64,000 bases of DNA from Lineus longissimus. Lineage: Eukaryota; Nemertea; Pilidiophora; Heteronemertea; Lineidae. Within the stretch, counting starts at the first letter, position 1. Every line of letters begins with the position of its first letter. The notes under the pieces are model-generated. The model was not told the origin of the DNA. It made no database searches and saw only the letters and a program-made list of their open reading frames with translations. Shown here piece after piece: positions 8,901 to 64,000 of the stretch. Location: contig NC_088308.1 of the NCBI RefSeq assembly GCF_910592395.1, forward strand, positions 5,084,001 to 5,148,000, written 5' to 3'. Made by a program: the position numbers and the translations under genes.

Positions 8901-9421
8901 TAACGTTAGTGGTGCTCTTCACTCAGACATTACAGGTGGAGCTATAGATCGAAAAATATATCCTCCGTGAATCAATACCACCCTTGGGTACACCGACACG
9001 CACAATAACTGGTAACCCTGGTAACCGATGGGGCAACAGAGCCGGTCTGTCTAGGTCAGGTTAGGGCAAATCATTCAGGATAGGAGGAAAGGTCGATCTG
9101 GTGAGAGAGAAAAATGCCATAAAGGTTTATATCTGGAATTATAGATTTTCCGTGCATTCATGTAGTTACAGAGTTGAATGACCACAAATTGGGTTGACTC
9201 GATCTTGGGAATATACATGTACATGGGAACAAACACAGCTACCTGCTGCGCAGGAATCATATAACATTGTATTCGTAGTCCCTGCTATCTTTAATAACTG
9301 CTGATATGTTATTTGACGTTAATCGATCAAAATTTCAATTGAACTCCCCAAGTTCATCAAAGAAATAGGTGGCAAAAATCTGCATTCATCACAGAAAATA
9401 CAAAAAAATAGAAAAATTAAA

Positions 9422-9428
9422 CGTCCCT

Positions 9429-9489
<61 letters not shown>

Positions 9490-9495
9490 AGAGAC
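9422..9495 (-). tRNA. tRNA-Asn (GTT)
   Basis: A 74-nt minus-strand tRNA starting GTCTCTGTGGCGCAATCGG and ending CCAGGGACG. The acceptor stem GTCTCTG pairs with CAGGGAC, the anticodon loop reads CTGTTAACC (anticodon GTT), and the T arm is GTTCAAGC. It matches animal cytosolic tRNA-Asn and is identical to the copy at 10287-10360. A T-rich pol III terminator (TTTAATTTTTC in sense) follows. No intron. Confidence 0.97.
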
Positions 9496-10286
9496 AGCTT
9501 GACAAATACATTTGTACTTCTACTTTTGACCAAAACGAGTCCTAACACAATTACCAGTAATCTGCAATATTAGGTAATAACGGATAATTAAAGACGTATT
9601 TTAATGTCACAATCATATTGAGCGCGTAATTTGATTCGGCCCACAATATTATTGCATATTATTGTTTGTGATAATTTGGCCTAAACAGCATATAAATCAG
9701 GACCGTTTCCTCATTACGGTATACTGGTCAGAAGTAACCGGATCTTCATCGAACGCAGCGATCTCATACGTGCAGAAACTAACATTGCACTTGTAGCCGC
9801 ATAGCTCAGCGCAAATGTTGATCAAAAGCCAATACTGTGTATACTGTACTTCCCCTACTTAGGTATACTCTTAGTTCAAAAACGACAGTTCACCTTTAAT
9901 TAATTACTCATGTGATCTTCCCAAATGGACATTGGATGCGCATAATTAAGCTTTCTACTTTTTAAAAGTTAGCCAACATAATTATCACCATATAGAGCTG
10001 TGTCCAAGTATGCATGTGACTTTCCCATCTGTCTGGCCCAAACGCCTAGTGAATCATGATTGGCTGTCACAATGGTGTCAATGATGATACTCAATTAATA
10101 CTGGTATTAACTAGTTTGTGCCAGTATCGGAACGATCCTGTGAACGGTCGCAATCGTGAAAATCCCCCCCCCCCCCCCCCCACACACACACACATACACG
10201 CATGACACAACAAAAGTGATCTCATCACGGTGTTAAAGTTTGAACTGTCTTTCAAAGGCTGACTAATACCGCATTGAATACCGTCT
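9496..10286. other. Spacer between divergent tRNA-Asn genes
   Basis: A 791-bp non-coding spacer, AT-rich, with an 18-C run followed by an (AC)n tract at 10164-10195. No gene seen. Confidence 0.6.
10164..10195. repeat. Poly-C (18) plus (AC)n microsatellite
   Basis: A run of 18 C residues is followed directly by a short AC dinucleotide tract. Confidence 0.9.
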
Positions 10287-10292
10287 GTCTCT

Positions 10293-10353
<61 letters not shown>

Positions 10354-10360
10354 AGGGACG
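10287..10360 (+). tRNA. tRNA-Asn (GTT)
   Basis: A 74-nt plus-strand tRNA with anticodon GTT, identical base for base to the minus-strand copy at 9422-9495. Internal A and B boxes are intact (GGCGCAATCGG and GGTTCAAGCC), and a TTTT terminator begins 6 nt after the end. The two genes form a divergent pair. Confidence 0.97.
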
Positions 10361-11906
10361 AATACACTTTTATCACATCAATTTTTTTTCACCGATATTA
10401 AAAAATACCACTCCCTTGTTTTGTTGTCAACGAAATCTGCTTTTATACTTGTAGGTATGTGAGAGGTGGTTTCGGTTTCGGTTTCATAAGAATTTCTTGC
10501 CGAGCTTTTGGTGATAGGAGAAAACACAAAACTGCCAAGTGTAGTAAATGTTCCGTGTCAGCCTCATCATTATACTAGCAACATGTTGTGGCATCATAAC
10601 ACTGGCTAACACTCTCATGCAGTGGCTATTTTTGGTAAAATATACCCAATCATGGTATAATGGGACGATTAGTGCTTGTTTATGTCGTTGACTGATGATA
10701 ATTGGGTCCGTAGTTCGTCCGTCGAGATAGGCAGTTTATGGATTCTGGATCGATGTGCACACGTGATAGGTGCGGGGATACGGGGGTGGCTAATCAGCTG
10801 TGATAGATTGACAAATTGGTTATGTACTTATTCATAAATGTCACCAGTTTCTCTAAAAAACAAACACACAAAACCCCCGAATAAAAGCATTACAGACCGT
10901 GCCATGAAATACATGTACTGTACCGTCGGGGAGAAGCCATCCTTTCAGAACGACACGTATGCTACGTTTCGTCACGAATATTTGTAGTTTGAGACTATAC
11001 ATGTATTCTAGAATTATGCATTTTAACTCATTTTTATTTTAGCCCGGTTACCCACTGGACACTATTCCAGGAGGACATCTTTGACTGCTACACCTTGTTG
11101 TATTTCTTTCTCTGGATACTGAATAGACGGCCTTGTGAGGACGGATCTATGATATGAAGGAAGGGAGACGATAGACCAGCCCTGGGCCGTCCCGCTTTCT
11201 ACAGCGAAGCGGATCGAAGCCTATTTTAAGGTTACAGAGACGATCAGGCCGATCCAGCTGCGTCCCGAATGTAGGGTTGAGACGATATCGACTATGGTTG
11301 TGATGGCAACACAAGAATGACAACGTAGACCCTGTCTGGCCACGTTCCCGATGATGTGACTGATGTCGTCGCCTGTAAGAGAAAAGGATCATTCAATTTA
11401 AATGTGTCAGGAAAGTTTACGACGAATTGATGTCTCAATGATAACAATAATACTTGTACATCAATATCAATGATGAAGCGGGGGTACGGCAGCCGAACAG
11501 CCGAAATACCGGATACGGAAATAACGTTACTTTTTCAAACAGCCCGCCAAAAAACAAAAGGCAATCGTCAAGATCAGTAGCGCCTTCCCGGGATAGAAAG
11601 TTGTACCACTAAACCTAATTGGAAGAGTTCATTAATTTATTAGGGTAGTATGATGAGATTCCCAATGAATTATCCCGTCGTGTTGTATTTCAATGAGTTA
11701 AAAAAAACGTCCATGCATATTTTTGAAAATATAAAAGCACTTACTCTCCTAATGCCCTCGATTTTAATCTAAACATATACCATCATTTAAGTTCTGCATT
11801 GGGTGGAGCATAAGCTATCGCCTCTCTGGCTTAGTGAAATCGTCTAGACTTGAGTCAGCGACATTTTGTTGCGGTTTCCGAATATTTACATTCAATTTTA
11901 CCCAAA
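10361..11906. other. Intergenic, no gene supported
   Basis: No recognisable coding sequence. A minus-strand open stretch at about 11370-11215 follows an acceptor-like TTTTCTCTTACAG, but no partner exon or family could be identified. Confidence 0.4.
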
Positions 11907-13703
11907 ATGAAGCTTGATATTGGGTTAATTTTGTGCACCACGGTGTTTCTTACTCTTTTAAAGAAGGGTAGGTTCTTATTTTCTACCATTTACTGCTTTG
12001 TGTTGGTTCAAATGTACTGTAATTTGTGTTTTTGGAAGTAGGTCACCAACTCAGAACTGCCATGGCTCATCTGCGTACATCAATGTACATGAATGTATAC
12101 ATTGTTTTCTCTTATTGTGATACTAACTTACTTTGTATTATATTTGGTGCCAACTTTCAAAATTACATGATTCGATGATGTTTAGACGTCTTTATCGCTG
12201 CACAGTATACTCTCTGCAATATATGTTCCTAAATTATGATTGTATAGGAACCTACCACCTTACAGCAATACAGGGTGATTTTGAAGCAGTTGTTTGCCAT
12301 GCACCAGTGGCAGTGTGAGTGTCGTTGATCGGTCTCCACGCTGAGAGTAGCCCCTCATTCATGACCAATTCTTAATTCCAAAAATACCTCTTCTTCAGGT
12401 TACACCATCCAGTGTTATCAGTGTGATAGCAATGAGGATGAGACATGCCCGGCTGATCGGCCATTTGATAAGAATATCAACGCCATGGTTAACTGTGGAG
12501 GGTTCGAGGCGAAGGTTCCTGGAACGTTTTGCTTGAAAGTGTATCAAGAATCACCTGGATGTAAGTTTTCCCTGAAAGGGATACAGAATACAAGACCTCC
12601 ACTCTTTAAGTCCACTGCCCAAATTGACAAAACATCCATCCCTGAGCAACTTACCAACCAAATAAAAACTAAACCGATTTTCGTGTTTAACATAGCCCAA
12701 AAAATCTTTATTGCCAGAAAGAAGATTCTTATAATGTTAAGATCTGACAGCGGTGACAAAACTCACTCGGTGTCAATAAAACCTGTAGCATAAACATTCA
12801 GGGCCGAGTTTACAAAGGGTGTTTAGCTTAAAACAGCGTTTAATGTCTGAATAGACAGAGTCAGGGCCTTGCAGGGTTTCTTCATGAAAACCGCATTAGG
12901 CCCTGAAACTGATTATGTAGAATTTACACGCGTCTAACTCTTAAACACCCTTCGTAAATTCGGCCCTCAGTCTATCTTGTTCTGTCTTCACATGAGACAT
13001 TTGGGATCCTTTGGAAGCATTTTATCATTCATTGAAACTTTGGAAACTAATGTTTTTATGGCTTTTATTTTCAGGGTTTGGCTGGGTGAAGATCACGAGA
13101 AGGTGTGGCTCGATCTCGGAAACAGGTAAGTCAAGAGAGTTCAGCTATTATACCCCTGGGACTGCCAGGGTTGTCTCACTCTGTGTGATTCCAACTAATT
13201 TCATCTTCATGGATGATGAAAGTACTAATCTAGACGAAATAACAGGCCATCTCTATTGAAAGCTAGAAATAGACTGTGGACAGGTTGTGCTGGTCGACCA
13301 TGTGACTACAGTATTTACAGGAGTCTAGCTTAGTTCAGGCTCTTTTGAAATCACAACAAAATTTCCGAGGAAACATGAAACGACCAGTGTTGACCATGTT
13401 ATGTGCTTATATGAAAGGAAACTCTCCTGACAAAAGTAAAAAGTCTTGTTACGTTGGTAAGTAGCACTTATTTTTACCAGCAAATAACAAAGCAATTTTT
13501 AATTGTCGTGCTAATCTCCTTTATGTCTTTCAGGCGTTGCTGTGGGTTGTCGTTGGGAATACATCGACAGTGGCGTCTTCAAGGAGACGTGTTTCTGTTA
13601 CACTTCAGATGGCTGCAACGGTTCTTCGACGATATCCACAAATTCCGTCCTCATCATTGTGTCAATAATAGCAGCTTTTCTAATGAAATACTTTTCTCAC
13701 TAA
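11907..13703 (+). CDS. Ly6/uPAR-domain protein, probably GPI-anchored
   Basis: Four exons (11907-11967, 12399-12560, 13075-13125, 13534-13703) join in consistent phase 1 to a 147-residue protein. Residues 1-20 form a signal peptide (MKLDIGLILCTTVFLTLL). The mature part opens with the Ly6 hallmark YTIQCYQC (Cys26 and Cys29). It ends with CFCYTSDGCN (Cys111-Asn120), the closing cysteines and invariant CN of the three-finger Ly6 fold. A G-S-S omega-site-like stretch (121-123) and a hydrophobic tail (about 129-145) follow, as expected for GPI attachment. Invertebrate relatives include the quiver/sleepless-type proteins, which sit at the cell surface and modulate channels or receptors. Which subfamily this is, and its partner, cannot be told. 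Intron 2 carries an inverted-repeat element. Confidence 0.88.
12800..12967. mobile_element. Inverted-repeat element (MITE-like) in Ly6 intron 2
   Basis: The element opens with AGGGCCGAGTTTACAAAGGG and closes with the near-complement CCCTTCGTAAATTCGGCCCT. The terminal inverted repeats run about 35 bp, within an element of about 168 bp. No open frame. This structure fits a non-autonomous DNA transposon inserted in the intron. Confidence 0.7.
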
Positions 13704-16468: not shown

Positions 16469-19224
16469 ATGTCGTCTGCTGATTGTAACATCGTCTGTTT
16501 ATTCATAGTCTTGACGTTAGCGTTCGTCGTCTGCTCGGGAGCGACTTGCAGGTAAGAATATGAAATGAAATGAAACGATTATATGCTGTACAACTCTACT
16601 GTATTGTACAACTTCGCAACTGTACTTCGTCGCCAATTGAGGACAACTCCCGACATTACACTCCGGACGCAGTTGACCGGCCTCGTCCCTCCCTCTCAAA
16701 CTTGAGACGAGACGAACAAATGGAATGCCCCGGGGTTTACCAGTTATAGGCCTTATTCTTGGAGTTGAGCTCACCATCTTCGGTTCTGAGCAAGGTCTTT
16801 CATCCTCACCTAAAGCTCCCTCAATCAAACGCATTTGGGTCAATTCTAACTCGGTTTCACATCCCCTTTGTTGTTGGAGACGGTGAAACATTTCACACAA
16901 TTTGGTGTCTTTGTGTTCAGGTGCCATCTTTTAAAACTAACTACAAATTGAACTTGTGTGGGGTATGGTAAAAAGCAGGGCCACTTTGGAGGATGCCCCA
17001 CCAACATCGTATATCAGTGCAGTGTAGGTCACACGTATGAGGCACATCGATTTATCGGCGTTGTGCGTAGGAGATCCCTCCTTCAGAAGGAGACTCTAGA
17101 GGATTGACGCACGACACTGATTATTCGGCATGGGAGTTGGGTGTCTTATACTAAATTAATCACATCATATACATGAAACGAAATCTAGGTCGAACACGAG
17201 TCTCCGTGGGTGATATATTCAGGTTAAGGATTTGTGTGCAAAGCGTGATTAAACTCGTTAAACGAAAAAGAGGCCCACACCATTATACCCGATGACTGGT
17301 GAGTACCTCTCCAATAAACGACGTTGTTATTATCGGTACTATCGGTCGTTCACCCGTTTTAGTTTACGCCTGTGTTAGTAAAAAACACTGTCGAAGACAA
17401 ACGCACCCCTGTCTCGATCAATGCCAGGCTCCCAGCCGCTAATATCCCAGTTTGGTGGGTCATTCATGATGCCGAGCCCTGTCCCTGGTTGAGAAAGACT
17501 TGTCCTCACTGAATCATCCTGTCCCTTGTAAATACGAAATAACCATGTCCTTTAAGGAAGGAATCACCTCTATTAAAGACATAATGTAATCACCCGATCT
17601 CTATGAAGACGAATTTATCACGTCTCCGGTGAACACAGAATCACCCGGTCTCTGATAGTAGAGATAGAAGTGCCCTGCTTCTGGTAAAGATGCTCTATCA
17701 AGACAAAATCGCGCTGACCCTGGCACAGCCGAACTGATCGCCCTGTTTCTCGTAAACACTGAATCTTCTTGTCTTTGGTAAGGCCGGAATCGCCATGTCT
17801 CTCGCAAAGACGGAAACAGCCACTGTCTTTGATCATTATATATAGACGGAGGTGCTGCATGTCTCTGGTATTAAAAGACGAACAGACGCTTTCTCTGTGA
17901 GATAAATGGTTTAATCATTTCTCTGGTAAAGGCAGAATCGCCCTGTCGCCGGTGGGTGCTAGAGCACCCTGTCTCAAGTAAAGACAGATTCGCCCTGTCC
18001 CAGGTAAAAACGAAACTGCCCTGTCTTTAGTAAAGATCATCACACGGTCTCTCGTAACAACGAATTCGTCCTGGCTGGAAATGATTGCAATGAAGACAGA
18101 ATCGCCCTGTCTCTAACGCCGTCATGGTAGAAACAGCTCTAGTATCATTCAGTTGCGACAGGCAAGAACTGGTCGTCGTTTCGGCGGTGCTGTGGTCTTT
18201 AGCCGAATGATATGTATGCACTTATGTGGAACTGGCAGAGGCATGTGATCTAGTCACTAACATCCATGGTTCAGAACGAATGGCCATAATTCGATCTGAA
18301 GCAGATTATGTATTAGAAGTCCATAATCTCCAGATTGTTCAAATCAAATTTTAAAATATCTTCATGCCCGTGTTCTCATTCTTTCCAGCTACGACTGTAC
18401 CGTGGATGACGCCGATCTATCCTGCTGGAGAGAGAACATCGATGTCTTCTCTAACATTATCCTAGACGCCGTCAACCAGCGGGTAATTGTAGCTAACCAT
18501 ATCGGGGAATGGAAGAGGAAACGTGCGCTACCCATATTCGACCCGAGCAGAGCCAACGCAGTGCTTGATGGAATAGTCGCCCGCAACCAGGGTCCCATGC
18601 CTGACGAGTCCATGAGAATCATCTTTGACAACATCGTGAACCAGGTAGGGTTTTATATCATCTAATTGAATGCGGCCTTGAGTCACTGCGTCAAGCTATC
18701 TACCAACTATCTACCAATGAAACTATCTACCAACTTTTATCACCACTTTTTAAGTCGATATGTGGTGCTTCAGAATGGTTGATTGGTTAACAAGAGGTAC
18801 TGGAGCCTGTTACTCAGCTGGGATTAGTCGTTGATGGCTTGACGCCTTCTGGTACAACCTATGGCATTGTTCTTTATTCTGCCATGTAACATGTCCGTGC
18901 AATCATTTTGGCGGAAGGGAGTAAACCCAGAATTGCATATGTTATTGGCGCCAGCATGAAACAAATGATGTGACGTTGAAGAGAAATGATCACATCTCTA
19001 ATTTTATATTTCAGACAACAATATACGAAGAGAATTTCAAAGGAACGCCCGCGAAATACGCATGTCCAGTGCCATGTCTTTACGACGGAATGCAGCCCAT
19101 GTTGGTGGCTGTGATAATCATCCAGACTGTGATGCTAGTTGTCCTTTTAGGAGTTGCGATATTTTTGATCACCTATTTCAAGAGACACAAAGTCACAACT
19201 GAACCTAACCTAATGGAAAAATGA
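16469..19224 (+). CDS. Membrane-anchored chorismate-mutase-like (AroQ-type) protein
   Basis: Three exons (16469-16551, 18389-18644, 19015-19224; phases 2 and 0) encode 182 residues. Residues 1-25 are a signal peptide (core CLFIVLTLAFVVC). Residues 38-121 form an all-helical domain with the AroQ chorismate mutase signature: WRENID, then NQRVIVANHIGEWK, then PIFDPSRANAVL, then NQGPMPDESMRIIFDNIVNQ. Aligned without gaps to the E. coli enzyme, Arg42, Arg59, Lys70, Asp79 and Arg82 match Arg11, Arg28, Lys39, Asp48 and Arg51. Ala83 replaces Glu52; Thr115 and Glu119 stand near Ser84 and Gln88. Cysteines 27, 31, 40, 130 and 134 flank the domain outside the membrane. Residues 143-168 are a transmembrane helix, followed by a 14-residue basic tail. 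The enzyme family converts chorismate to prephenate, but whether this protein catalyses anything is unknown. Animals lack the shikimate pathway, so its ligand may come from microbes or differ. An ATTAAA lies about 25 bp past the stop. Confidence 0.85.
16658..16693. repeat. Dispersed repeat A, copy 2
   Basis: Matches 8384-8419 (ACACTCCGGACGCAGT, then GACCGGCCTCG). Lies in intron 1 of the chorismate-mutase-like gene. Confidence 0.6.
17455..18120. repeat. Degenerate minisatellite, about 30-bp unit, in intron 1
   Basis: About 20 diverged copies of a unit resembling AGACAGAATCGCCCTGTCTC then TGGTAA fill about 660 bp of intron 1 of the chorismate-mutase-like gene. The clearest copies are at 17930-18115. 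Confidence 0.8.
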
Positions 19225-20521
19225 CAATGCGCTGAGAAACAGAAGACGAATTAAATACATTTTCAAAAACCTTTATATGCAAGATTCATTGTCATGTCAG
19301 AATAACTTTTTATAGCTCAGGTCAGCGGAAAACTACTCCAGGGAACTCTCACGCGAAGTTACACGTTCGTTTTGGCTAGACTCCTCTGCAGTCCATGATC
19401 CATTTCGTAATACTGATCGTCATGACGACGCTTGTCCACTGCCTCGGGAGTGTAGTTTTGGCCGGTGCGCCGAATAGTTGCCTGGCTAGACTGGCCTGGT
19501 GATTAAGGATTCTAATGTACCCTTTTAATCTGAGGTCTTCGATCTCTATATCCCTACACCTTAATTGTTCATTGTACCGCGTTGTCATCTGATCATGATT
19601 CAATTTTCAATTCATACATGGTTATCATTTTTCCAGTACTGTAAAATGCCCAGGGGCCGTTGAAGTTGACAGCGATTTTGCACTGATATGTCTGTCACAG
19701 GGTGTTGTTATTCTGTGGGTATTTTTACTCTGAAGCACAACAAAGCAATGATGTGACCAGAGTCAGCACTTACAATACATGCGGCATGCTACATCTACAT
19801 GCATATATCAGGTTCGTTTTCTGACTCTACAAGCGATGTTTTTACCGGTATTTTATACATTTTTGTGCCGAGTGGCTATTTTTCGTATATAGATAACGGT
19901 ATGTGAATCATGTTGTCTTTGATGAAAACCTTGAGATATTCATGTCACATAATATATTACAGACTTATCTAAATGCATCTGTGTTATGATTCATTATCGG
20001 CGACAAAGATTTGAAAGGACAATTTAGAGGGAGGGGGCCTCTCTCCATGAACATAGTTCCAAGCTATACACAAGGACGGACGACAAAGGAACAACCAACC
20101 ACTGCCAGCTGGTTATCTGACTCTCACGAGACTGGTAGTACCCAATATCTACCTGACGACAACTCTTTAAGCACAACCACCACCCGAGTCTTCTCGCTCA
20201 CCAGCCCTATTAACGAAGAGCTCCCTATCAAGGCCCGAGCCTCTCCATGATGCCACTTGTTGCTCTCTGTGAACTGATGACTGACACGTGAGACCAACTT
20301 TCTTTCACGGGAAAATGGTCACTGTAAGAATTATATGGGAAGAAATGTATAATATTTGGGGTTTTCCGGTTTATCCGGCCCAATTGGCAATATTTCCCGA
20401 ATAGATGTTACGTCCTGTTAATGGGGCTGGTCATCATCGCGTACATTCGGGAAAAACTCCCAAACGAGACCCAAATTCTACCGGCGCAGTCGGATGCGCA
20501 GTTGAACGGGAAAGTATCAAA
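19225..20521. other. Intergenic between chorismate-mutase-like gene and GET4
   Basis: Contains a 35-codon frame with a signal-peptide-like sequence (19395-19502) and an unrecognised 79-codon frame (20011-20250). The last 150 bp are probably GET4 promoter and 5' UTR. Confidence 0.4.
19395..19502 (+). CDS. Small ORF with signal-peptide-like sequence (uncertain)
   Basis: A 35-codon frame begins MIHFVILIVMTTLVHCLGSV, a convincing hydrophobic signal sequence, and ends CLARLAW-stop. It lies 170 bp after the chorismate-mutase-like gene on the same strand, just after a CTGCAG acceptor-like site. It could be a tiny secreted peptide, a leftover first exon from a local duplication, or chance. Confidence 0.2.
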   Translation: MIHFVILIVMTTLVHCLGSVVLAGAPNSCLARLAW

Positions 20522-20530: not shown

Positions 20531-23500
20531 CCAGAGAGTCGACGCGGCGGTGGTGCACGGCGAGTTTTGGCCAAATTAAAAGCCAGTGTGGCGGCCGGTG
20601 AATATTATGAAGCACACCAGATGTACCGGTCATTGTATTTTAGGTAATAATCCCACTTTTAAGGCAGGGTCGATGTTTTTCACCTGTGACTACATGATTA
20701 TTGATCGTGGGTTTCCCGAAGATTCCAGTGTATTGCGTGTATATTAATATTTGTACAAGTGGGTAGTTTAAGATTCTGCCACCAGGGCCGGTGTGAAATT
20801 GGTTAGTCTGGTTAGATGGGAAATAAGAGTTACCCTATTAAGTCATTGATTATTCATTCATTGGATATCTCAGACGACAGAGATTCAATCATGGTAAGAA
20901 AGGCCAGCCGTGACCAGTGAGTGCGACGAGCGTGGAGTGAGAAGTTGGAAGACTTGTGAATGTGAGTTGTTCTAACAACAAATACTAGCTTTGATTCAAT
21001 GATTGAGTAACAGTGATTTGAACTCATTGCAGGTACAATGCCCAGAAGAAGTATGCAGAGGCAATTGATTTACTTTACTCGGGTGCTATGGATTTTCTGA
21101 AACATGATCAGGTGAGCTGGCTTATTGCTGTTGTAGGGACAGGTTTTGCTTGACTTTGTCCCTGACTGTGACTGATCTAATGCTGAAAAATGATATAGGC
21201 CCTTTTCCAGATATGCCGGAACCACCTCGGGTCGAACCAACCATCTGTTTGTTGGTCCGACTCCAGGTTGTACCGGCGTATCTGGAAAAGGGCCTATTGC
21301 TGCCAGGTAGTCTTTTACACTGACATTTGTGACCTGCATCATACATTACAGTTACTTATCCAGTGATTCGGTGGGTCGAAGTGCAGGTAAAAGTGCATTA
21401 CTGTTATCAACATTTCTTTTGATTTTTTTCAGCATGAGAGTGGTGCAGACCTAGCCATGCTTTTACTAGAAATCATGAAAAATGCCTCCTCGGCAGTTGA
21501 TAATGATTCTGTAGGTAAGTGTCAGAAGAAAGCTGTAATTATGCGTTGAGACAGAGACAATGCTAGTGGTCGCTACGAGTTGGATTTCTCATTTGAATTG
21601 AAGTCTGTTGTGATTCTGTTTTCACCTGCTTCATCAACGTTCATTTCAAGTGAGTTGTTGTACAGCAGAGAAAGTACATGTATGCCATATTGCAGCAGGT
21701 AGTGATACAGGCTCATCTGCCTTTCTTTAAAATAGAAAATGGAATGGGGGAGTGGGGTTACAGGCCATAAAAATCAAGTTTTTAAGCTAACTCTGCAATT
21801 TTGATAAGAACGCTCAAGCAACTCGAGCAACTCCAAACAAACATGTCATAAAACAAATGTTGGTCATTCATTTCTCTCTTTAGGTAAACTTGTCAATATC
21901 CATAAATCTTTCCAAAATTCCCAAGATAGGATAGCGTTCACAAGTTCAGCCATCAAATGGGCATCGATGGGCGAAAATCAGAAATATCATTCTGGTCATC
22001 CAGACTTACATCAACAGTTAGCACTTAATCTATGGCAAGGTAAGTATAAAATGATGCCAACCTTTTAAGGGCAGGTCTCTCGGGGGCACTGTGAGTTTGG
22101 TCTGTTTGTATGGTGGTCAGTCTTGCTGGAGTAAATCGTCCACTTGCTATGCATGTGAAGTGCAAATTGTTTTTAGAGAAAGGTCATAAGCCCTGTCATG
22201 AAGAAACTTCCTCAATTAATGTTGTCATGTTTCTAAAGTGGTTTTGGGTTGATATGAAAATGAAATTTAAGTTCTTGTGTAAAGCACTATATTATACTGC
22301 ACATAATGTACAAAAAGTGCAACTGTACTGCCTCAAAGCACTTTACATTCACTTCCCAGCCTTATCCAGATAAACTTCTGTAGAAAACTGTGTGGCGTGT
22401 TTTCTTAGCCATTTTGGGCCAGTTTTGTATTTCACGCTCTCTGTTTCTATTTCAGAAAAGAATTATGCAGAAGCACGGTATCACTTCTTGCATTCAACAG
22501 CCGGGGAAGAGTGTGCTAATATGTTGATAGAGTACCACAATACAAAAGGTTATCCTTCTGAAGTGGACTTATTTGTAGCACAAGCAGTTCTACAGTAAGT
22601 ACTATTCAAACATTCAATTGAAATAACTGATTGGTGCTTGTACACTTGATAGAAATCGGTCAATGGTAAATCACTGTTGCCATCATCAGTTGAATAAATG
22701 CTGCTACCAATGTATTGTCTCCCAGGTCAATTGTCCAGATTCTATTAAAACTGTGGGAGAGATTACTGTAAACCCCAAGTTTGTCAACCGAAACTTTCTT
22801 CCATCTACTACATTGTGTTGTAAACAAGCCGCTTTTTCAAAAACTCAAGAGTCAAAGTATCTCGTGTTCTAATGTGCTAAAAATTTGAAATATCTCGTCT
22901 TTGAAAATAATGTGTGAATTTGGGAAAATTCCTGCAGTGGATGATACTTATCTAATCTCACAACATTCATTTTCAGATATTTATGTCGGAAAAATAAACA
23001 GTCAGCTAATGTTGTATTTTTTACGTATACAAGAAGTCACCCTCTCATAAAAGATGGCCCGCCATTCATGAAGCCGCTGCTGAACTTTTGCTGGTTTCTC
23101 CTTTTAGCTGTTGAAGAGTAAGTTTATCTAAAAGACTACAAATTCGTTAGCCAGTTGAGATATTTGGGAACCGCTAAATGTAGTGTTCTCTTGCAATGAT
23201 AAATGTGGCCATTGGACTTCTTTCTGACTATAGCGTCTGACTGTATAGCACTGTCTGTGGAGAGTTCACGACTCAACAGTCCTAGAAACTAAATGGAGTG
23301 TTCGAGGGAGAATACTATTAACATAACCCCAGATTTTGATTTTACTGTACAACCTCTGCATTTAAAAGAAAGTACAAAATTTAGTCTTGATTTTTCTTCA
23401 ATAAGTTCAATTCAAGTTAGTTTCATTTCCTTATTTGCTTCCCATTTCAGTGGTAAACTGACAGTATTTACTATTCTTTGTGAGCAGTATCAAACATCTA

Positions 23501-38400: not shown

Positions 38401-41400
38401 TAAAACTCCCTAGAATAGTCATTCCTTTCTAATTTGGGCACTATACACGTTCTTGATAGATTGATACCCATTTTTAATCTGACATCAGTTCTTTCATATG
38501 ACACCAAATGAAGTGATATCTAGTATAATTAAGTAGGATCCCCTAATGCTGATAATCAAATGTCACCTGTTTAGAGTTATGATTATTTGATGGCCTTTTC
38601 AGCTGAAATGACAACTGTCGTCTGCGACAAAGCAGCAAAGGCCCAACTGCTTTTGGATGGCGCTGAAAAAATGCCATCTCTGAAACGCATCATCATTATG
38701 GACGACATCTCGAATAATAACCAGGAGACAGCCAGTAAACATGGCATCGAAGTGGTGTCATTTACACAGATAGAGGAGGTCGGGAAGGAGAACCTGAAGG
38801 AAGCTGTGGTGAGTGCACCTGCCATTTCATCAATTATATTTTCACTCCATAGAGGTTTTGGTGAGATAACGATAACCTCTTGGGTTGGTAAAAATGAGTT
38901 GAAAGCAGAGTCTCGGAGGACAATGCCTAGATATGTCAAGTTACAGGTGCCTCTCTGTCAGCATTATCTCTCGCCAAACACTGTACGATAGGAGCTGTCA
39001 TTTCACCCAAAACCTAACTTGACTGCTACCTCGGTTTTGCCTACATTTTAGCTCCACTTCCGTGTTGTTAGGTTAGACAACAAATACCTCAAGTTTGGTA
39101 TCAGTTCCTTAAACCAGGCAAGTCACATAATTCTCAGTGATCTGGGCAAAGAGATCTATGCAATAAAGGTTAGGTGGAGATCTTTGAAGCAGTTGTTGGT
39201 AAGTTTCATGGTTAAATACACGTTTGATTTCTATTTCAGCCACCCAAACCAGAGGACCTCTGCACCATATCATACACAAGTGGAACAACCGGAGATCCAA
39301 AGGGGGTCATGCTAAGTCATCGTGCCATGGTTGCCAATGTATCCTCCATATTCAAAATCTGTGGGGTAGGTTTATTTGAGTCTCTAAACTGGATAGTGAA
39401 AACCACCAAAGGGCATTCCGGGAAGTGTAACCCTGGTCCATTTTCAATAGTCCACCAGACACAATTTTAAAAGATTTCAGTTTTTCACAGTTATTCATTG
39501 ATCTGTTAAACGTTTGTGTTGGACGGAATTCACTTTTTGAAACACACCCTTATCAGGTTTCTTTCCTTCTTTCAGGTGTTATTTGATTGCACCCCAGACC
39601 AGACCCATATATCATACCTGCCATTAGCCCACATGTTTGAAAGGTGTTGCGAGGTATGTTTCACTTCTGCTATACTCCTTTGAGAAATTTGAATCGGTGC
39701 TGCTGTCAACCGAACAAAATGTTCAAATTTTGTATTTAGCATCAATACTTCATTACTGTTCAGTGTAATACCTCAGTTGCTTATCAGCACATGTGCGTAA
39801 CCGAATACGAAATCTGGAAATTGTGTTCCGACTTCTGTGGACTCTGTTGATTCAAAGTCCTCAAAGAAGTATTGCATAAAGTTTTGATGACTCGATTTTC
39901 AAATGAAAACTGGTTCTTAAATTACCGAATTCGGCCGAGGTTTGTGCATTCGGGTGGTCAGTTGGACAGCGTCTTCTTAATCTTTCTGCTTCAGAGAATC
40001 TAAGAAAGGTTTGGCTGCTAAACTCTCTGTTTTGTTTTCAGACCTTTATGTTAATGAGTGGATGCCGGATAGGGTTCTTCCGAGGAGATGTCAGAAAGTT
40101 GCCAGATGACATAATGGCGCTGAAACCGACCATGTTTGTGACCGTACCGAGGCTGCTGAACAGACTGTATGATAAGGTGTGTGGAGTGTACTGCGGACTG
40201 ATCATGGTGTTCATCTCTCAGTGCGAGGGTTGTGGCTTCATACGGGTCCAGATCACTGATCAGTAGAGTACAGAACCTCCCAAAGTAGATGCATCTCTAT
40301 TAAAGACAACCTCTCTATTAACATTTTGTTCATAGGGCTGGTCATGTTCCTGTATGTGTCTGCATCATGCCAGTACCTCTTTAGATGGATAAACCAATGA
40401 TACTTTCTGTTGAACACATCTGTGTGATGGGTCTCTTGCCTTGGCTTAGATGAGTTGTAATGTGAAATAAACCACCAAATTCACAAAGTTATTAGATATC
40501 ATGGAGCATTTATTTGTTTTCCTACAGGCAATGCATACTGCTGCTTCAAGTTGGATCAAGAGAAATGTATTAAATTTGGCAATCAGTCGAAAGGAAGCTG
40601 AATTAAAAAGGTAAAGAAACGATTTCATATGATCAGACTCCCGAGTCTAGACCTTTTGGTGTTAGTCAGTTATTCAAATGTAGGCAAGTAGATTGGATTA
40701 GCTTATCAGTGACAGATAGGGATGGACTTTCTGGATTGACGGAATTGGTAAGAAAATCAGAGACACTTTGTATACTCTACTATAGTTATTTTTCTTCCTT
40801 TTAGGGGTATAAGTAGGCGTGACAGTATATGGGACAAATTAGTATTCGGCAAAATCCAGGAGAGCATGGGAGGCAACGTGAAACTTGTCCTGACGGGTTC
40901 AGCGCCGCTGTCGGATAAAGTGCTAACATTCTGTCGTGTTGCCTTTGGTTGTCCAGTGAGTATACATGAACACTTTGACTTATGCTACATTTACTCTTGC
41001 GTGAATGAATAAAGGGATTTTCCGATCATGACTTGTGAGCATTTTGCCTGTCGCTTTGGTTCTGCGCAAGTTGAGCTCATTGGCCTGGTGACAACACTGT
41101 CTAAAATAGGTGTCTCTTGGCCTAATGCCTAAATCAGTCACAAACTGCATTACTTGTTAGAAATGTTAGAACCACCAGAGCTTTTTGCTCAATGAGACAT
41201 ATCTCAGCTTAAGACAACTTGATGTCATGCAGATATGACACCACAGTTGCCAAGACATGAATTTGTTCATAACAATCAACATTACCCACAAGCTGGCCCT
41301 CAGGTGTAGGCTCTATGAAATATACTGCAACTAAAACGACATTCTTGGGCATTTATCATTGTCATTGAAGCTAACTGTTCTGTCAGGTATAAGAATTCTT

Positions 41401-44400: not shown

Positions 44401-47400
44401 CCGAGGTGTAAATGGTGTAAATTGGCTGTGAGTGTAAGTATGGCACATTTCTTAACCGCAAAAGCTATTAACCTAAAATTTGGTACACATGACTCCCTAC
44501 GTCAGATAACCTCTGACAACGAATTCCAGTCCGATCTAATTCTCGACTTCAAAACTGAAAAGGTAAAAAGTGCAATATCTTATCAATTACTCGTTTTCAT
44601 AGTAAAGGTTACGGTAGGTACTCCTTCTTGCAACTGCGTAGCAAATAATTCATGTCTAGGTCCCACAGTCTGTACAATACCGCAGTGTCCGGCGTCTGTC
44701 GCTCCTGTCATCATAGTCGCCGTAGTCGTCAGTCGTCAGTCATCCGTCATCGTCTGTCGTCGTTCGTTGTCATCTGTATCCTGTTTCAAAAGCCGTGGCA
44801 CATTTCTTAACTGCTAATGTAGTAAGTCTATGAACTTGAAACCTTGTACACAGGCCCCTCCAGATCAGATGACCTCAGACACTTATTTCGGTCCAATCTA
44901 ATTCTTGACTTAGCCATCAGCAGGCAAAAAGTGAAAACCTAAAAAGTTGTGATATCTCTCTTATAAGTGAATCATTTTCGATAATATTTCCTAGCAAGGA
45001 TACATCACATATCATATGGGTTATTAATTTGACCTACTTTTCAAGGTCACGTAGGTCAAATGGTGTAAATTGGCTGTTTGAGTGTAAATATGGCACATTT
45101 CTTAACCGCTAAAGCTATGAACCTGAAATTTGGTGCACATGACTCCCCACGTCAGAAAACCACGGACAATGAATTCCGGTCCGATCTAATTCTTGACTTC
45201 AAAACTGAAAAGGTAAAAAGTGCAATATCTCTGCATGAATTCTTAACCACCAAATATCTAGCGAAATACAACTACTTGTGATGCATTACTGAAAAATGTG
45301 AAAAAGATTGAAAGAATCTCACTGAAAAGCTTTTGTTATAGTTTATTAATCGAGTTTAGAAAAGGGTCTAAAGTTTGATATGAGGCAACGCTACTGATCC
45401 ACCTACATGTATCAAATTGGCTCCAATGTCATCATCATTGTGTGGCATTGATTCCTCTCTCTTCACTGATGTAGTTCTATGGGGTCCTGAACTCTTGCGA
45501 AATGTAGAGACTGGACCTGATCAACACTTCAGGAGTATAAATCAGTAAGTACAACTTTCAAACGGACTAAAACACTGGAAGATAAAAAAAGAAGAATTAT
45601 AATTTTTTACCAATTTGGTGGGAAAAGTGCATAATTCTACCAAAAAGAACAAAAGAAACATTCGTCCGAACTTTACAATCCCCGATTGACGTAACCCTGC
45701 AGAACAACTCAACATGTAGTAACAATAAACAAGCCTGCCAACCCCATTGGTTGATAGGTGACATGACACTGAAACTCGTTTTAGTCCTTCTGTTGTCCCT
45801 CGTGGCTAGTTTTGAAGTGCCTATGTCTTACGGTTACAAAACGTGCACCAGGTTGACGGATGGAAGGACAGACACCATTCTGTGGTGATGGATGGAAGGA
45901 CAGACACCATTCTGTGTTGACGGATGGAAGGACAGACACCATTCTGAATAGTTATCGTGCAAAATTTTTTGTCAAGGTCATTTCTTTTGCTGTTCTTCCT
46001 CATTGCCAGATTTGCTGTGCCTGTGTCTTACAGTTTCAGAATGTGCACCATGTTGACAGATGGAAAGACAGACGCCATTGTGTGTTGACGGGATTCTGCG
46101 TTGACGGATGGAAGGACTGACACCATTCTGAAAAGATATTGTGCTAAAGAGAAACATGCACCATGATGACGGATGGAAGGACAGACACCATTCTGAATAG
46201 TTATCGTGCTAAAATTTTTGTCAGGGTCGTTTCCTTGGCTGTTCCTCCTCATGGCCAGATATGAAGTGCCTAGGCCCATTGGTTGATAGATGATTTCTTG
46301 CTTAATCAACACCTGAACTCATTTTAGTCCCTCTGACGTCACAATCCCGATTGCGGCCATACTGCGAATAACTGGGACAATGGGCGATCAAGTGGGACAT
46401 GGAATTCCATTCCCAAAATTAGCAAGTCCTGACAAGCTTATAGACAAAACGTATAAAGTGCAAAATACCAAGACAAGGGTTTCCTCAAGAAACATGCAGT
46501 AAGACTCACATCGATCTTAAGTCAACAACGACAAGAGAGTCCTTCCTCTCCTGGAATACGCTCCAATACCTTGGTATCCCTACCACAAGAAAGACCTGGG
46601 CTGTCCTGTGTCAGGACGTTATGCAGTGGACATAATCTGTTCTGATCAGAGGATTGCGGCTGCGTTTCCTGTGTCAGACAGTGAAACCACATTCGACTCA
46701 CTATCTGCTCTATTAGAGAACTGCTCTGGTTGCCAGACTGGCCCAGAGGATTGCGGCTGGGTTTCCTGTGTCAGACAGCGGAACCACATTCGACTCACTA
46801 TCTGCTCTGTTAGAGAACTACTCTGATCAGACAATTAAAACCTGATCACTTGTGTCAGATGGCCAACCAAAGCATAGCATACATATTCTGATAAGAATAC
46901 TGACCATTAAAAACATTGATAAAGATTCGAAGTGCCTAGGCCTGTCAAAGACCTCCAAGACAAGGATCAAGGTCTTGTGTTTATAAGTTACCATTGTATG
47001 CCTTAGAGGTGGCGAAATGATACTGTTTAGACAAGAAGTCTCTCCAAATGCCTCATAGAAGCCGAGGGATTAAAATCTTGTCTTTATTGGCTAACGAGTG
47101 CTTACCCTTTCCAAAGACATCCTTTCGGGAATCGTAATTCCCACGGGGGTGACTGGCTCTTCCACCCTTCCCCCACTCCCCCCGTGCGAACGTATCATTG
47201 GATAAAGCCAGGTCCTTGAGATCGTGGTGGAATGTCAAAAAAAATTGCAAGCAAATGCCAGGGAGACCACTATCTGACATCCATAACAGCTTACCTCCCT
47301 CTTTAGCTAGTTACAGTTGGTGTGACACAACAGGCGAGTATAGTGGTTGCCATATTGATTGATTTATAACATCATTTGAAATATATCCCATCAAGAAAAT

Positions 47401-50400
47401 ATGAGAAAATTTATGTCATATTACACACCGATGAAGGATGAGGCCGATAAAAACCATAGAGTGGGAACGAATCACTTTTGGCAGTTCATAAAAAGTTAAA
47501 GATAGGATGTATAAGGTATATCCCAAAATTACCAAGACCACGGGTTTCCTCTGCAGAAACATACAGTAAGACTCACATCGATTTTAAGTCAACAACAAGA
47601 AGAGAGTCCTTCCTCTCCTGGAATATGCTCCAATACCTTGGTATCCCTACCACAAGAAAGACCTAGGCTGTCCTGTGTCTGGACGTTATGCAGTGGACAA
47701 AAACATAATCTGTTCTGATCAGAGGATTGCGGCTGCGTTTCCTGTATCAGACGGTGAAACCACATTCGACTCACTATCTGCTCTATTAGAGAACTACTCT
47801 GGTTGCCAGACTGGCCCAGAGGATTGCGGCTGGGTTTCCTGTGTCAGACAGCGGAACCACATTCGACTCACTATCTGCTCTGTTAGAGAACTACTCTGAT
47901 CAGACAATTAAAACCTGATAACTCGTGTCAAATGGCAAACCAAAGCATAGCATACACATTCTGACAAGAATATTGACCATTAAAAACATTGATAAAGATT
48001 CGAAGTGCCTAGGCCCGTCAAAGACCTCCAAGACAAGGATCAAAGTCTTGTGTTTATAAGTTACCATTGTATGCCTTAGAGGTGGCGAAATGATACTGTT
48101 TAGACAAGAAGTCTCTCCAAATGCCTCATAGAAGCCGAGGGATTAAAATCTTGTCTTTATTGGCTAACAAGTGCTTACCCTTTCCAAAGACATCCTTTCG
48201 GGAATCGTAATTCCCACGGGGGTGACTGGCTCTTCCACCCTTCCCCCACTCCCCCCGTGCGAACGTATCATTGGATAAAGCCAGGTCCTTGAGATCGTGG
48301 TGGAATGTCAAAAAAAATTGCAAGCAAATGCCAGGGAGACCACTATCTGACATCCATAACAGCTTACCTCCCTCTTTAGCTAGTTACAGTTGGTGTGACA
48401 CAACAGGCGAGTATAGTGGTTGCCATATTGATTGATTTATAACATCATTTGAAATATATCCCATCAAGAAAATATGAGAAAATTTATGTCATATTACACA
48501 CCGATGAAGGATGAGGCCGATAAAAACCATAGAGTGGGAACGAATCACTTTTGGCAGTTCATAAAACGTTAAAGATAGGATGTATAAGGTTTATCCCAAA
48601 ATTACCAAGACCACGGGTTTCCTCTGCAGAAACATACAGTAAGACTCACATCGATCTTAAGTCAACAACAACAAGAGAGTCCTTCCTCTCCTGGAATACG
48701 CTCCAACACCTTGGTATCCCTACCACAAGAAAAACCTAGGCTGTCCTGTGTCTGGACGTTATGCAGTGGACAAAAACATAATCTGTTCTGATCAGAGGAT
48801 TGCGGCTGCGTTTCCTGTATCAGACGGTGAAACCACATTCGACTCACTATCTGCTCTATTAGAGAACTGCTCTGGTTGCCAGACTGGCCCAGAGGATTGC
48901 GGCTGGGTTTCCTGTGTCAGACAGCGGAACCACATTCGACTCACTATCTGCTCTGTTAGAGAACTACTCTGATCAGACAATTAAAACCTGATAACTCGTG
49001 TCAAATGGCAAACCAAAGCATAGCATACACATTCTGACAAGAATATTGACCATTGAAAACATTGATAAAGATTCGAAGTGCTTAGGCCCGTCAAAGACCT
49101 CCAAGACAAGGATCAAAGTCTTGTGTTTATAAGTTACCATTGCCTTAGAGGTGGCGAAATGATACTGTTTAGACAAGAAGTCTCTCCAAATGCCTCATAG
49201 AAGCCGAGGGATTAAAATCTTGTCTTTATTGGCTAACGAGTGCTTACCCTTTCCAAAGACATCCTTTCGGGAATCGTAATTCCCACGGGGGTGACTGGCT
49301 CTTCCACCCTTCCCCCACTCCCCCCGTGCGAACGTATCATTGGATAAAGCCAGGTCCTTGAGATCGTGGTGGAATGTCAAAAAAAATTGCAAGCAAATGC
49401 CAGGGAGACCACTATCTGACATCCATAACAGCTTACCTCCCTCTTTAGCTAGTTACAGTTGGTGTGACACAACAGGCGAGTATAGTGGTTGCCATATTGA
49501 TTGATTTATAACATCATTTGAAATATATCCCATCAAGAAAATATGAGAAAATTTATGTCATATTACACACCGATGAAGGATGAGGCCGATAAAAACCATA
49601 GAGTGGGAACGAATCACTTTTGGCAGTTCATAAAACGTTAAAGATAGGATGTATAAGGTTTATCCCAAAATTACCAAGACCACGGGTTTCCTCTGCAGAA
49701 ACATACAGTAAGACTCACATCGATCTTAAGTCAACAACAACAAGAGAGTCCTTCCTCTCCTGGAATATGCCCCAACACCTTGGTATCCCTACCACAAGAA
49801 AGACCTAGGCTGTCCTGTGTGAGGACGTTATGCAGTGGACAAAAGCATAATCTGTTCTGATCAGAGGATTGCGGCTGTATTTCCTGTGTCAGACGGTGAA
49901 ACCACATTCGACTCACTATCTGCTCTATTAGAGAACTGCTCTGGTTGCCAGACTGGCACAGAGGATTGCGGCTGGGTTACCTGTGTCAGACAGCGGAACC
50001 ACATTCGACTCACTATCTGCTCTGTTAGAGAACTACTCTGATCAGACAATTAAAACCTGATCACTTGTGTCAGATGGCAAACCAAAGCATAGTATACATT
50101 TTGTGACCAGAATACTGACCATTAAAAACATTGATATTGACTGTATTAAATCATGCTCTAGCAGAGACCAGGCAACTATTATGTCTTGAAATTTGAAAAT
50201 CAGGAAAAAGGTTTCCAAATAAGGAAGTTACTAGACTTGGAACTTGGTGTTTGCTTGGCCATATGATCGCTGTCGACTATCACTTCAACTACCACTTCAG
50301 ACTTCATGGAAATATAGTAAACAGGCATCTTGGTTTGTTGTATGCAGTTTTAGCTCAATCAGTAAGTGGCAGAATAGACTGAAAGACACCTTGATAGAAG

Positions 50401-56487: not shown

Positions 56488-59400
56488 ATGCCACGGGCGA
56501 AGCCGAAGAAGGAGAAATTACAAGGTATCTTATTGTCAATATTGACATAAATTCAGGACTGTTCCAAATTTCACAGTTCTCATCCTTCCATCTGTAGACT
56601 AGTGTTCAAGGACTTAAGTAGAAAGTGTAAAATAGAGTAGAAAGTGTAAAATTGTGGGAATACTTAAGTGCTTTTGATGGAAATGAAAGGGCTGACAAAA
56701 CAGGAAAGGATGATGATGTTTTATTTCTTAATATCTTTTTAAATCAGTCTTGTTTTGACTTAAAATGTTTTCTAGATCTGAGGTGTTCATCTTGTTTATT
56801 TTCAGAGACAGTACCTGAGGTGAAGCCGGTTTCAAGAACAGGAAATATTGCGAATGAGCAAGCTACTGCCATTGTGGAGAAACAACAGCAGAAATACACA
56901 AGTCGAAGGACAGGGAAGAAATTTGAGGAACCTGAAGGTGTTGTAGAAAGTGTTGTCATCGATGAGGAAATTAGCTTCAGAAGAGCGAGCCTTGGAGTTT
57001 ACGGGTTTAGTGAGGAGATAGAACGGAATAGTCCTGAAACGGTGGTGGAGAAGGAAACAAGTGCTGAGCCAGATGTTGCAAAGGTAGTTGGTGCAAAAGC
57101 GAGGGGTAGGTCGGTTAGGAAAAGCAGAAAGAAAGGACTGGAGGATTTGGAGGTTGGTGATGGAGGGGTGACGAGGTCAACAGGTGCTAAAAAGATGAAA
57201 AAGGATGTGACTATGGTTCAGAATGACATTGATAATGAGGAAAACGTAGAAGTTGATGAGATTGAAAAGTGTATTGTGAAGTCAGGGTCCAATACGAATA
57301 AACTATCCAGGATTGGAAATCTCAGGGCAAAGGTTAAAAAAAGTGCTCTGGGCCAGAATTTCTTTGAGGTTGATGCAGAATGTGATATTGAAGACTCGGA
57401 GGGTGTTGGAAAAGAGGGTACGACCAATGGAAATGTCTGTGTTTCTCCAGACATTGATCAAGCTTGTGAACCAAGTGCAGCCAGTCATTCTCAGAAAACT
57501 GGACAAGGAGTGAAGGATGTTTGGGAGAGTATCGTAAAAACCACTCGCAAGGACCCTCGCGCTCAGAAACTCAGTTATAAAAAGATAAAGATTGATCAAA
57601 AAGGCAGTAAAAACACTGGCACAGGCTCACAACCGGGGGAGTCAGGCAAGTCTCTCGCATCTCCTCTGAGTCTGAGTGAGGACACTAATGGACTCTTCAC
57701 TGGCATCCGAACGTACAGTAGAAAGAACTTGTCTGAGTGGAAGAAGAACAGTACTGGCAATGATGAAAGTGTGGAAGAAATATTAAGTCTACAGGGCCAA
57801 AATTTGACAGAATCTAACAAAGCAGAAGAATCTGAGGTTGGTGATGTTGTTGAGAAAACTTCAGAGGAGGTTGTGGGTAAACAAGGTGTTAAATCAAGAA
57901 GAAAGGGTGGTCCTAAGTCGAAGGAAGTTGTAGATCATAATGACATTGACGGCCTTGGGAATCTAGCGGTTGTGAGAGAAGCTGCTGTTTGCAACTCTGA
58001 CATAATCGAAAATAGTGATGAGTTGGCAAAGATTGTAGATGGTCCTGAAGTTGAAACATTGTCCCCCAAAGTGCGCAAGACTGCCAGGAAGGGCGCAAAC
58101 GCAAGAAAAAACACAAGAAAGATTGATGCAGAACCGGAAGATGAAAATGAAAACCAAGTGGAAGCTGTTGAATCTCTGGATCCAGATCTGAAAGAATCTT
58201 CATCTCATTCAGGTGAGACATCTAGAAAAGGTGTTAAAGGAAGTATGGCTGGTACTCTTAAAAAGGAGTCTGCAGAAGCGACTGAGACTGAGGGTAAACA
58301 GAGTGGGCCCACGAGAAAAAGTGGTAGGCTTAGGAAGACTGGTAGAAAGGCTGAAACTAAACCTGAGGTGTGTTTAGACCAAGTGGATGACTCTTCTGAG
58401 GGAGCTCAGATAGAAGGTCGTCCAAAGCATCTGAGTGAAGCCATGAAGAAAAATGGTAGATCAAATAAAGCTGTTTGCAAGGCAGAGATTGAACTGAAGG
58501 ACACCCCATCAGTAGACAATGCATCCATTGACAAAATGGATGGTGAGGAGTCGTGCGAGGTTGTCAAGACGGAGAGTCTGCATCTGCATCTGCAGACCAC
58601 GAAGAAAAGTGGTAGAATGAAGAGGACCAGCAAAACGGTGGAAGCAGAACAAAGCGAGGCTCCCCCAATAGAGGATGCATGCTTGGACAAGATGGACATT
58701 GAGGAGTCTGCGGGAGGAACAGTGTCTGAGGATAAACATCAGAGTGATGCCACGAGGAAAGGTGGTAGATCTAGAAAGACTGGTAGAAAGGCTGCAACTA
58801 GCCTAGAAGACACCCCATCGGTTCAAGCTGTAGATGAAATGAATGTGCAAGAGTTGGTGAAGGCAGCAGAGACTGAGAGCTCTCTTTCTCTTGGGATTGA
58901 GAACACAAGGGAGGGTGGTAGATCCAGGAAGGGCGGGAAAAAGCCAGAAACCAAATTGAAAATTGTACAACCGATAGATGATGCTTGCATGGACGGAATG
59001 GATGTTCAGAAGGCAGCAGCCACAGAAGAGGTAACAGTGATAAAGATGCCTCATCCGAATGGAGTTGATGCCAAAAGCGAGAGTGGTAATCCAGTCACAA
59101 GTAATGGTTGTGGAGAGGTTGTTGCAGGACTAGTGGATTATCTGGAATCTGCTGATAAAATGCTTGAGAAAGTTGATTTATCATTGACTGTTGAGACATC
59201 AATTTCGTCTGGGAAGAGTGGCCCTTGCCGAAAGAGTGATGGTACAGTTGATGCTGAACCCAAAGTTACTGTACATGAAGACTCTAAGGAGAAGGATGAT
59301 ACTTTTGAAAGACTTGCTGAAGACGAATGGATTGCAGAGGTTGGTGCACTGCCTGCATTGTCAGCAGAAGCAGCTGGTCCTGACAATTCTTCTCCTTGTG

Positions 59401-62400: not shown

Positions 62401-64000
62401 AGCAACAAAGTGTTTTCAGTGCAGGAGAAAATCTCAAGAAGGAAGCCATACTCCCAAATGTTGCTGCCCAGCAGCTGAGACAAGAACTATTTTCTTCTGA
62501 TCATGTTTGTGACAAAGAGGTGGAAGGATTGAATGATGTCGGACTTGCATTGCATGGCAACGGGAAGAGGCGATTGATGTCTGAAGATGACATGTCACCT
62601 GCTGAGTCTTTGAAAGAGTATCAAAGTGGCTTCTGGGACGTTGTCGATGGTAACAGTGAACGAGTCGAAAGCTCGACTTTGGATGTGACTGTTGATGAGT
62701 TGGATTTGAATGGGAATAATGTTACTGATCTTAAAGATGCAGTGGAAGTAGAAGCTGATGTCCATGCTGAAGTTGATGGGACTACTGCTACGGTTGTGCC
62801 TCCTAGTGATGGGTTGGACAGTTCGAAGAGTTGTGATAGGTTAAGGAAAGTCATTGGGTCGATGGCGACAACAGATCGTGACGCCGTTGATGAGATCATG
62901 GAGGAAGACCTTCCAGTTCAAGCTGGTGGGAGGAAACGTGGTGGCAATCGTGGCAAGGCGACAAAAAGAAAACCTAATGAAGAGGAAGTGAAGGAGGTCC
63001 GGAAGTCCAAGCGTAATAAGAAGTTTGAAGAGGAGGATGCAGAGCCTGGTGGAAGTGGCTCAATTGAGGCAAAGCCAACAAGATGTTACAAGATTGGTCC
63101 CAGTCGGAAGGAGGATATGTACGTTGGAGCCCATGTTTCAATATCTGGTAAGTGTCTGTAAGTTTTGTCTAGCTTCACTACTTAAGTCTTGATGGTTATG
63201 GTTGATGATTCTGAGTTCAAACCTCAGAGACAGGGTCATTTCAGCCTTAACTCCCTGCCACCTGAACCTTGTCACAGAAGTCAATGAGACCAAATTTATA
63301 ATCATTGTATACATCCAATTTTGGCACTTTTGTTTTCTCAGATCAGGTATCCAATTCCAAGTTGTAAATTACCAATCAATTAATTTTCAGGTGGTCTCCA
63401 CAAAGCAGTTGCAAATGCTGTTGAAGTTGGTGCTCGGTCGTTTGGGTTATTTCTACGAAGTCAAAGGCAGTGGTCCGTGAAACCAATCCTGGATGAAACC
63501 GCACAGAAATTCAGGAAGGCTTGCAAGGTATTACTGCACGTTTCCCCTTGGCTTTGAATACCCTTGAAATGCATCAGATTGGTTGTGAGGGCTTTTCCTT
63601 GTAATGCAAGGTCATTGAGCTAACGGAAATGAGAATGCTTCAACAAACAGTGTCCCTGATGTTGTGACACCAGGTCATTGAGCTCGCCATAGAATATTCT
63701 CATTAAAGAGCCAAATGATCTTTGATTGGCGACTTTCTATTCAGATATAGGATTATTCAACGGATTCTGTTCCAGGACCATCATTTCCCGCCTCATTTGA
63801 TCCTTCCTCATGGCTCCTACCTCATGAACCTCGGATCACCCAAACCAGATCTCCTGCAGAAGAGTCGAGATCTCCTGGTTGAAGAACTCTCAAGGTGTGA
63901 ACAGTTGGGACTGGAGCTCTTCAACTTTCACCCAGGTAAAAGCTCAAGTTTTAAAGTGAACACATACCATACTCATGAGGCTATTCTGTCAAGCACCAAA
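56488..64000 (+). CDS. APN1: Endonuclease IV (APN1/Nfo) with giant repetitive N terminus (partial)
   Basis: The conserved domain belongs to the zinc-dependent AP endonuclease IV family, which cuts DNA at abasic sites and trims blocked 3' ends in base excision repair. Exons: 56488-56524 ([12 protein letters not shown]), 56806-63147, 63391-63527 and 63776-63935; phases 1, 1, 0, then 1 into a GTAAAA donor. Later exons are off the right edge. The catalytic domain starts near residue 2117: [11 protein letters not shown], then [12 protein letters not shown], then [20 protein letters not shown], then [14 protein letters not shown]. The His of LPHGSY and of NFHPG match zinc ligands His69 and His109 of E. 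coli Nfo. The preceding 2,100 residues are Lys/Glu/Ser/Val-rich and apparently disordered, with over 20 copies of a basic motif like [10 protein letters not shown] and tandem KxEPITP motifs near 1845-1895. Typical Nfo proteins are 280-400 residues, so the extension is exceptional. One open exon reads straight from the repeats into the nuclease domain, so it is not two genes. Confidence 0.93.

Follow-up and report, generated by a model that had tools for sequence, protein, structure and literature searches.

The closest match to the protein domain described here is the chorismate mutase domain of DAHP synthase/chorismate mutase proteins (AroA(G), 5gmu/5go2; Thermus, 2d8d/2d8e), a cytosolic bacterial domain that stands ahead of DAHP synthase. 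The worm domain has the same three-helix order and shares the places of R11, R28, D48 and R51. However, Glu52 is kept in five of five rows of the bacterial domain, which has none of the three elements predicted for the worm protein, namely a signal peptide, a cysteine frame and a membrane anchor. The AroQ-gamma proteins of bacteria are exported, as is predicted for the worm protein, and share with it the AroQ helices and, in *MtCM, the lack of the Glu; they differ from it in a rearranged helix order and a longer chain. The chorismate mutases of plant-parasitic nematodes, which are effectors of these parasites, are not known to carry a membrane anchor. Like the worm protein they belong to an animal, and they are reported to be secreted and to have been acquired from bacteria (PMC4828791).

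No publication pairing chorismate mutase with Nemertea or Lophotrochozoa was found in a search outside which most subscription journals lay. Judged by title and abstract, none of the chorismate mutase publications that involved an annelid or a marine invertebrate was about such a gene. The publications on horizontal transfer to metazoans, among the matches listed and in the text available for them, dealt with plant-parasitic nematodes, insect symbionts and other matters. As far as we know, animals lack the shikimate pathway, and chorismate and its relatives would therefore mark microbes, algae or plants. Detection or degradation of chorismate-type compounds at the surface of a free-living animal was not found described in the literature searched; either role could be considered for a protein of this kind, conserved, displayed at the surface and equipped with a chorismate-type pocket.

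The window, the whole stretch of 64,000 nucleotides that was analysed, lies at C1:5084001-5148000 in the genome of the heteronemertean Lineus longissimus, on a contig of 29.4 Mb; the published bootlace worm assembly is given as 391 Mb (PMC8593623). Splicing of the window at 16469-16551, 18389-18644 and 19015-19224 (forward strand, as are all features of the gene) gave a frame of 549 bases that encodes 182 amino acids without a break. Exon 1 carries the start codon, the predicted signal peptide (hydrophobic residues 1-30) and Cys27 and ends in phase 2. Most of the AroQ domain lies in exon 2 (residues 29-113), together with Cys31 and Cys40; this exon ends in phase 0. Exon 3 completes the last AroQ helix, with Glu118 in this final part, and continues with Cys130, Cys134, the predicted membrane helix, a short basic tail and the stop codon. 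Intron 1 (16552..18388, phase 2) and intron 2 (18645..19014, phase 0) both have a GT donor, an AG acceptor and a pyrimidine-rich tract before the acceptor, and a candidate poly(A) signal, ATTAAA, is found at 19250..19255, 26 bases past the stop codon. All 182 residues of the product agree with the NCBI model LOC135498284 from L. longissimus (100% identity), annotated as an uncharacterized protein, and both junctions (16551/18389 and 18644/19015) therefore match the public annotation. Thus, the animal gene with three exons in matching phases that had been proposed in the preliminary description was borne out.

Pfam CM_2 (PF01817) matched residues 41-118 far beyond chance (50.9 bits, cut-off 27; E 1.9e-13), and exon 2 was the only CM_2 place detected in the entire genome (391,118,348 bases, 30 contigs). 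From the residue table and the predicted helices, the AroQ domain was placed at 18417..18644 (residues 38-113) and 19015..19032 (residues 114-119, with Thr114 and Glu118). Helices were predicted at residues 39-72, 80-93 and 100-119, which corresponds in a single-chain model to the three-helix AroQ fold with its long first helix; a good model was built when bacterial sequences were included in the alignment, and the two worm sequences alone gave none. PDB matches were found both by sequence and by fold. The helical AroQ domain and the PIFDPSR and NQGPMPDES signatures that had been read from the sequence were all present in the spliced protein.

By profile, sequence and fold, the best matches were the AroQ domains of the DAHP synthase/chorismate mutase and PheA type. 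The equivalog cut-offs for DAHP synthase/chorismate mutase were missed (PRK12595, 46.6 against 279 bits; CM_A, 45.6 against 106.35 bits), and no further domain, and so no fused DAHP synthase domain, was found in the 182 residues. The protein had earlier been compared with AroQ-gamma; the outline of that reading stood, but the subclass did not, since the protein scored 21.8 bits on the AroQ-gamma equivalog TIGR01806, whose cut-off is 74.15. The NCBI isochorismate lyase model (PchB, PRK07075) did not appear among the 17 models with a match to the worm at E 1 or better, and the cut-off of the CM-like subfamily TIGR01803 was also missed (23.4 against 73.35 bits). Two rows of the latter subfamily, L003 and L004, resemble the worm protein in an aliphatic residue instead of Glu52 (Val in L003, Ile in L004) and in the Glu that they have at Q88; they differ in having Gln at D48, where the worm has Asp, and the worm joins them at just 28/76. 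This subfamily may be akin to the 4-amino-4-deoxychorismate mutases. The L004 frame (365-727), which has Ile at the Glu52 place, encodes a CM-like protein of a Streptomyces plasmid and adjoins a gene of the prephenate dehydrogenase family, an arrangement that may resemble 4-amino-4-deoxychorismate mutase clusters.

Relatives were gathered by three protein searches that work through shared words, one of which missed the Lineus protein itself; for this reason, the lack of a match in other animals does not mean absence there. The named relative was LOC141903785 (P0002) of the palaeonemertean Tubulanus polymorphus, with 46% identity in the alignment, and among named eukaryotes these word-based, incomplete searches returned the two nemerteans only. 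Three relatives were derived from contigs: P0004 (ENA, 1,562 bases), P0003 (JGI, 1,516 bases) and P0005 (lgn, 1,128 bases). Eight PheA-type proteins were also returned by one search. The CM_2 cut-off was passed by the Lineus protein (P0001), P0002, P0003, P0004 and P0005. P0003 and P0005 contain two AroQ domains each, and the second domain of P0003 taken alone, with 16.0 bits, was under the cut-off of 27; a tandem-domain relative was searched for in the Lineus genome and none was found. The seven family domains formed one clade against 17 bacterial rows (support 95/87). Identity between the Lineus and Tubulanus proteins was 51/82 in the domain, 6/22 in the signal peptide, 9/21 in the linker and 12/41 in the membrane helix and tail. 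The frame of P0004 leaves the family sequence where the Lineus introns lie, which suggests that P0004 is an exon from a different animal whose gene is interrupted at the same positions. Conservation thus spans two nemertean classes, Palaeonemertea and Pilidiophora, with the same layout in the Tubulanus homologue, and the locus is an intron-bearing, conserved animal gene for a predicted cell-surface protein with a bacterial-type AroQ fold.

Hydropathy revealed N- and C-terminal segments in Lineus (residues 1-30 and 137-171), Tubulanus and P0005; in P0003 and P0004, no segment passed the threshold. The structure model placed a C-terminal helix at residues 140-174 (19093..19197), which includes the putative membrane-spanning stretch and is followed by a short basic tail, YFKRHK. 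From these features we infer a type I topology with a signal peptide and a single C-terminal membrane helix, as had been suggested in the preliminary description; here, the agreement is one of hydropathy. The flanking cysteines noted there were located at positions 27, 31 and 40 ahead of the domain and 130 and 134 behind it. P0001, P0002, P0003 and P0005 together contain six modules, and in these five cysteines recur, in the frame C-x(2-3)-C-x(7-8)-C ahead of the domain and C-x(3 or 5)-C behind it. Because five is an odd number, a disulfide between modules may be formed. A putative glycosylation site, N-Q-T at Asn112 (18639..18641), is split by intron 2, and P0002, P0003 and P0005 have N-x-T at the corresponding position.

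Alignment to E. coli chorismate mutase equated Lineus Arg42, Arg59, Lys70, Asp79 and Arg82 with R11, R28, K39, D48 and R51, and these five residues were retained in Lineus, Tubulanus and P0004. Both worms have Thr at the S84 place (Lineus Thr114) and Glu at the Q88 place (Lineus Glu118). Therefore, the residue set of functional AroQ proteins (R11, R28, K39, D48, R51 and Gln or Glu at 88) is complete in Lineus. The Glu52 place is occupied in Lineus by Ala83 (codon GCC, 18552..18554). None of the seven family domains has Glu there (Ala in both worms, Val in the other five), and Glu is present in 15 of the 18 bacterial rows; the remaining three have Gln (P0008), Val (L003) or Ile (L004). According to PMC12329711, 81% of 238 family sequences have Glu at the equivalent place, where it touches the 4-hydroxyl of chorismate; the isochorismate lyase PchB has Val there, and so does *MtCM, a secreted mycobacterial chorismate mutase that remains fast because Glu106 substitutes. 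Since *MtCM is fast with Val and a stand-in glutamate, Ala or Val alone does not rule out chorismate as the substrate. PchB shares with the worm family an aliphatic residue at the Glu52 place, but it is a bacterial siderophore enzyme with Ala51 where the worms keep Asp. The loss of Glu52 hints, without proving it, that the ligand is not chorismate itself.

The tandem relatives were compared on the same places. In domain 1 of P0003 and P0005, R28, K39, D48, R51 and E88 are kept and R11 is replaced by Ser or Lys (Lys, a mild change, in P0005); in domain 2, R11 is kept and R28, K39, R51 and E88 are lost. In BsCM_2, one chain contributes R27, K38, D47, R50, E51 and Q86 to a site, and the partner chain contributes R10 (PMC5526877). 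If the worm sites are shared in this manner, each tandem chain retains one whole site, E52 aside, and the pattern is the best indication of a used pocket. It counts once because P0003 and P0005 share ancestry. A count of 2 in 252 was rejected as a probability, since a one-chain site scores alike and both tandems have a common ancestry; it indicates only that the tandem losses follow one of the few patterns by which a whole site is left.

The retained anion pocket and the loss of Glu52 led us to propose a chorismate-like ligand rather than a housekeeping chorismate mutase. In the reading we favour, to which an even chance is given, the proteins would be a nemertean secreted family with a single membrane pass, whose AroQ ectodomain, of bacterial origin, would bind or slowly convert a chorismate-like dicarboxylate. 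The AroQ gene would most likely be a bacterial acquisition older than the divergence of Palaeonemertea and Pilidiophora, to which introns, a signal peptide, a membrane anchor and the cysteines on either side of the domain would later have been added. The ectodomain would most likely form the usual antiparallel AroQ dimer, in which one chain would contribute R28, K39, D48, R51 and E88 to each pocket and its partner would contribute R11. The pocket for anions would be kept, with Ala or Val in place of the glutamate that contacts the 4-hydroxyl, and the protein might bind or slowly convert, at the cell surface, microbial or dietary isochorismate, 4-amino-4-deoxychorismate or a related compound. 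A wider proposal, made tentatively as possible rather than probable, is that nemerteans, and perhaps other animals from which the tandem proteins come, turned a bacterial shikimate enzyme into a disulfide-linked surface dimer with a retuned pocket that senses or clears microbial chorismate-derived metabolites, and that one branch merged this dimer into a single chain in which one pocket works and the other is dead. The family would then be a case of a bacterial-type enzyme rebuilt as a membrane protein, and the tandem relatives seem to show the passage from a dimer with two shared pockets to one chain with one pocket. The question of the ligand can be addressed with ordinary recombinant protein.

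An unlikely alternative is that the AroQ dimer serves as a structural or receptor scaffold that binds another protein and has no small-molecule ligand. The membrane anchor with its short tail, the disappearance of Glu52 from all seven domains and the absence of R28, K39 and R51 from the tandem second domains would suit such a role. However, both worms have retained the charged residues of the pocket, and one full site persists in the tandems, which a scaffold would not need.

It is also quite unlikely that the protein is a working chorismate mutase anchored at the surface, which would convert chorismate from microbes, algae or prey to prephenate. Glu52 is missing in seven of seven family domains, and in our alignment, there is probably no Glu at the place of the stand-in Glu106 of *MtCM. 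Moreover, chorismate synthase was not found in the Lineus genome by a search that was positive in 14 of 14 control genomes, although a heavily split gene could escape it because the controls were prokaryotes without split genes. The retention of R11, R28, K39, D48 and R51 would nevertheless be expected of such an enzyme, Glu at the Q88 place is also found in bacterial rows, and the fast secreted enzyme with Val at the Glu52 place is a precedent (PMC12329711).

As to origin, the domain is of bacterial type and the closest named families are bacterial. A family-motif scan of 84,980 prokaryote species returned one relative, a stand-alone acidobacterial mutase with 32% identity, and the same kind of scan of viral contigs returned none. 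The closest bacterial rows join the family at only 28/76, and the tree names no donor. Vertical descent of an old eukaryotic AroQ gene that was lost elsewhere, instead of horizontal gain, would agree with the deep presence in two nemertean classes, the tandem relatives and the lack of an identified donor; it is nonetheless improbable, given that the nearest named families are bacterial and that, in incomplete searches, two nemerteans alone were returned among named eukaryotes. Bacterial transfer before the split between Palaeonemertea and Pilidiophora appears to be the simplest account.

The neighbours of the gene in the window are of animal type: a QVR (Ly-6/uPAR-like) exon at 12365-12790 (+; E 4.8e-6, barely above the cut-off) and a GET4 exon at 22374-22595 (+; E 3.2e-10). 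Bacterial contamination or an annotation artefact, for which the bacterial type of the domain might speak, has a negligible probability, as had been argued earlier from the exon structure, in view of two GT-AG introns, a 29.4-Mb contig, the QVR and GET4 exons nearby, a homologue of the same layout in Tubulanus, a member of a second nemertean class, and a motif scan that gave only one distant, ordinary bacterial relative.

Several other features of the window were recorded. Two opposed tRNA-Asn genes (anticodon GTT) lie at 9421-9496 (-) and 10286-10361 (+), each with 68.4 bits (Rfam). A match to AMP-binding enzymes at 39907-40263 (+; E 2.4e-5, under the cut-off) is perhaps an exon of an acyl-CoA synthetase. 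A tandem array with units of about 1.07 kb occupies 46521-50040; according to Tandem Repeats Finder, the same 97-base duplet occurs in it at 46647, 47720, 48793 and 49862, and open frames of about 101 amino acids recur at 46521, 47588 and 48661. An open frame of 2,176 amino acids at 56631-63158 (+) is rich in KSGRSRK-like repeats and lies in a region of strong GC and AT skew; its end may resemble the start of endonuclease IV.
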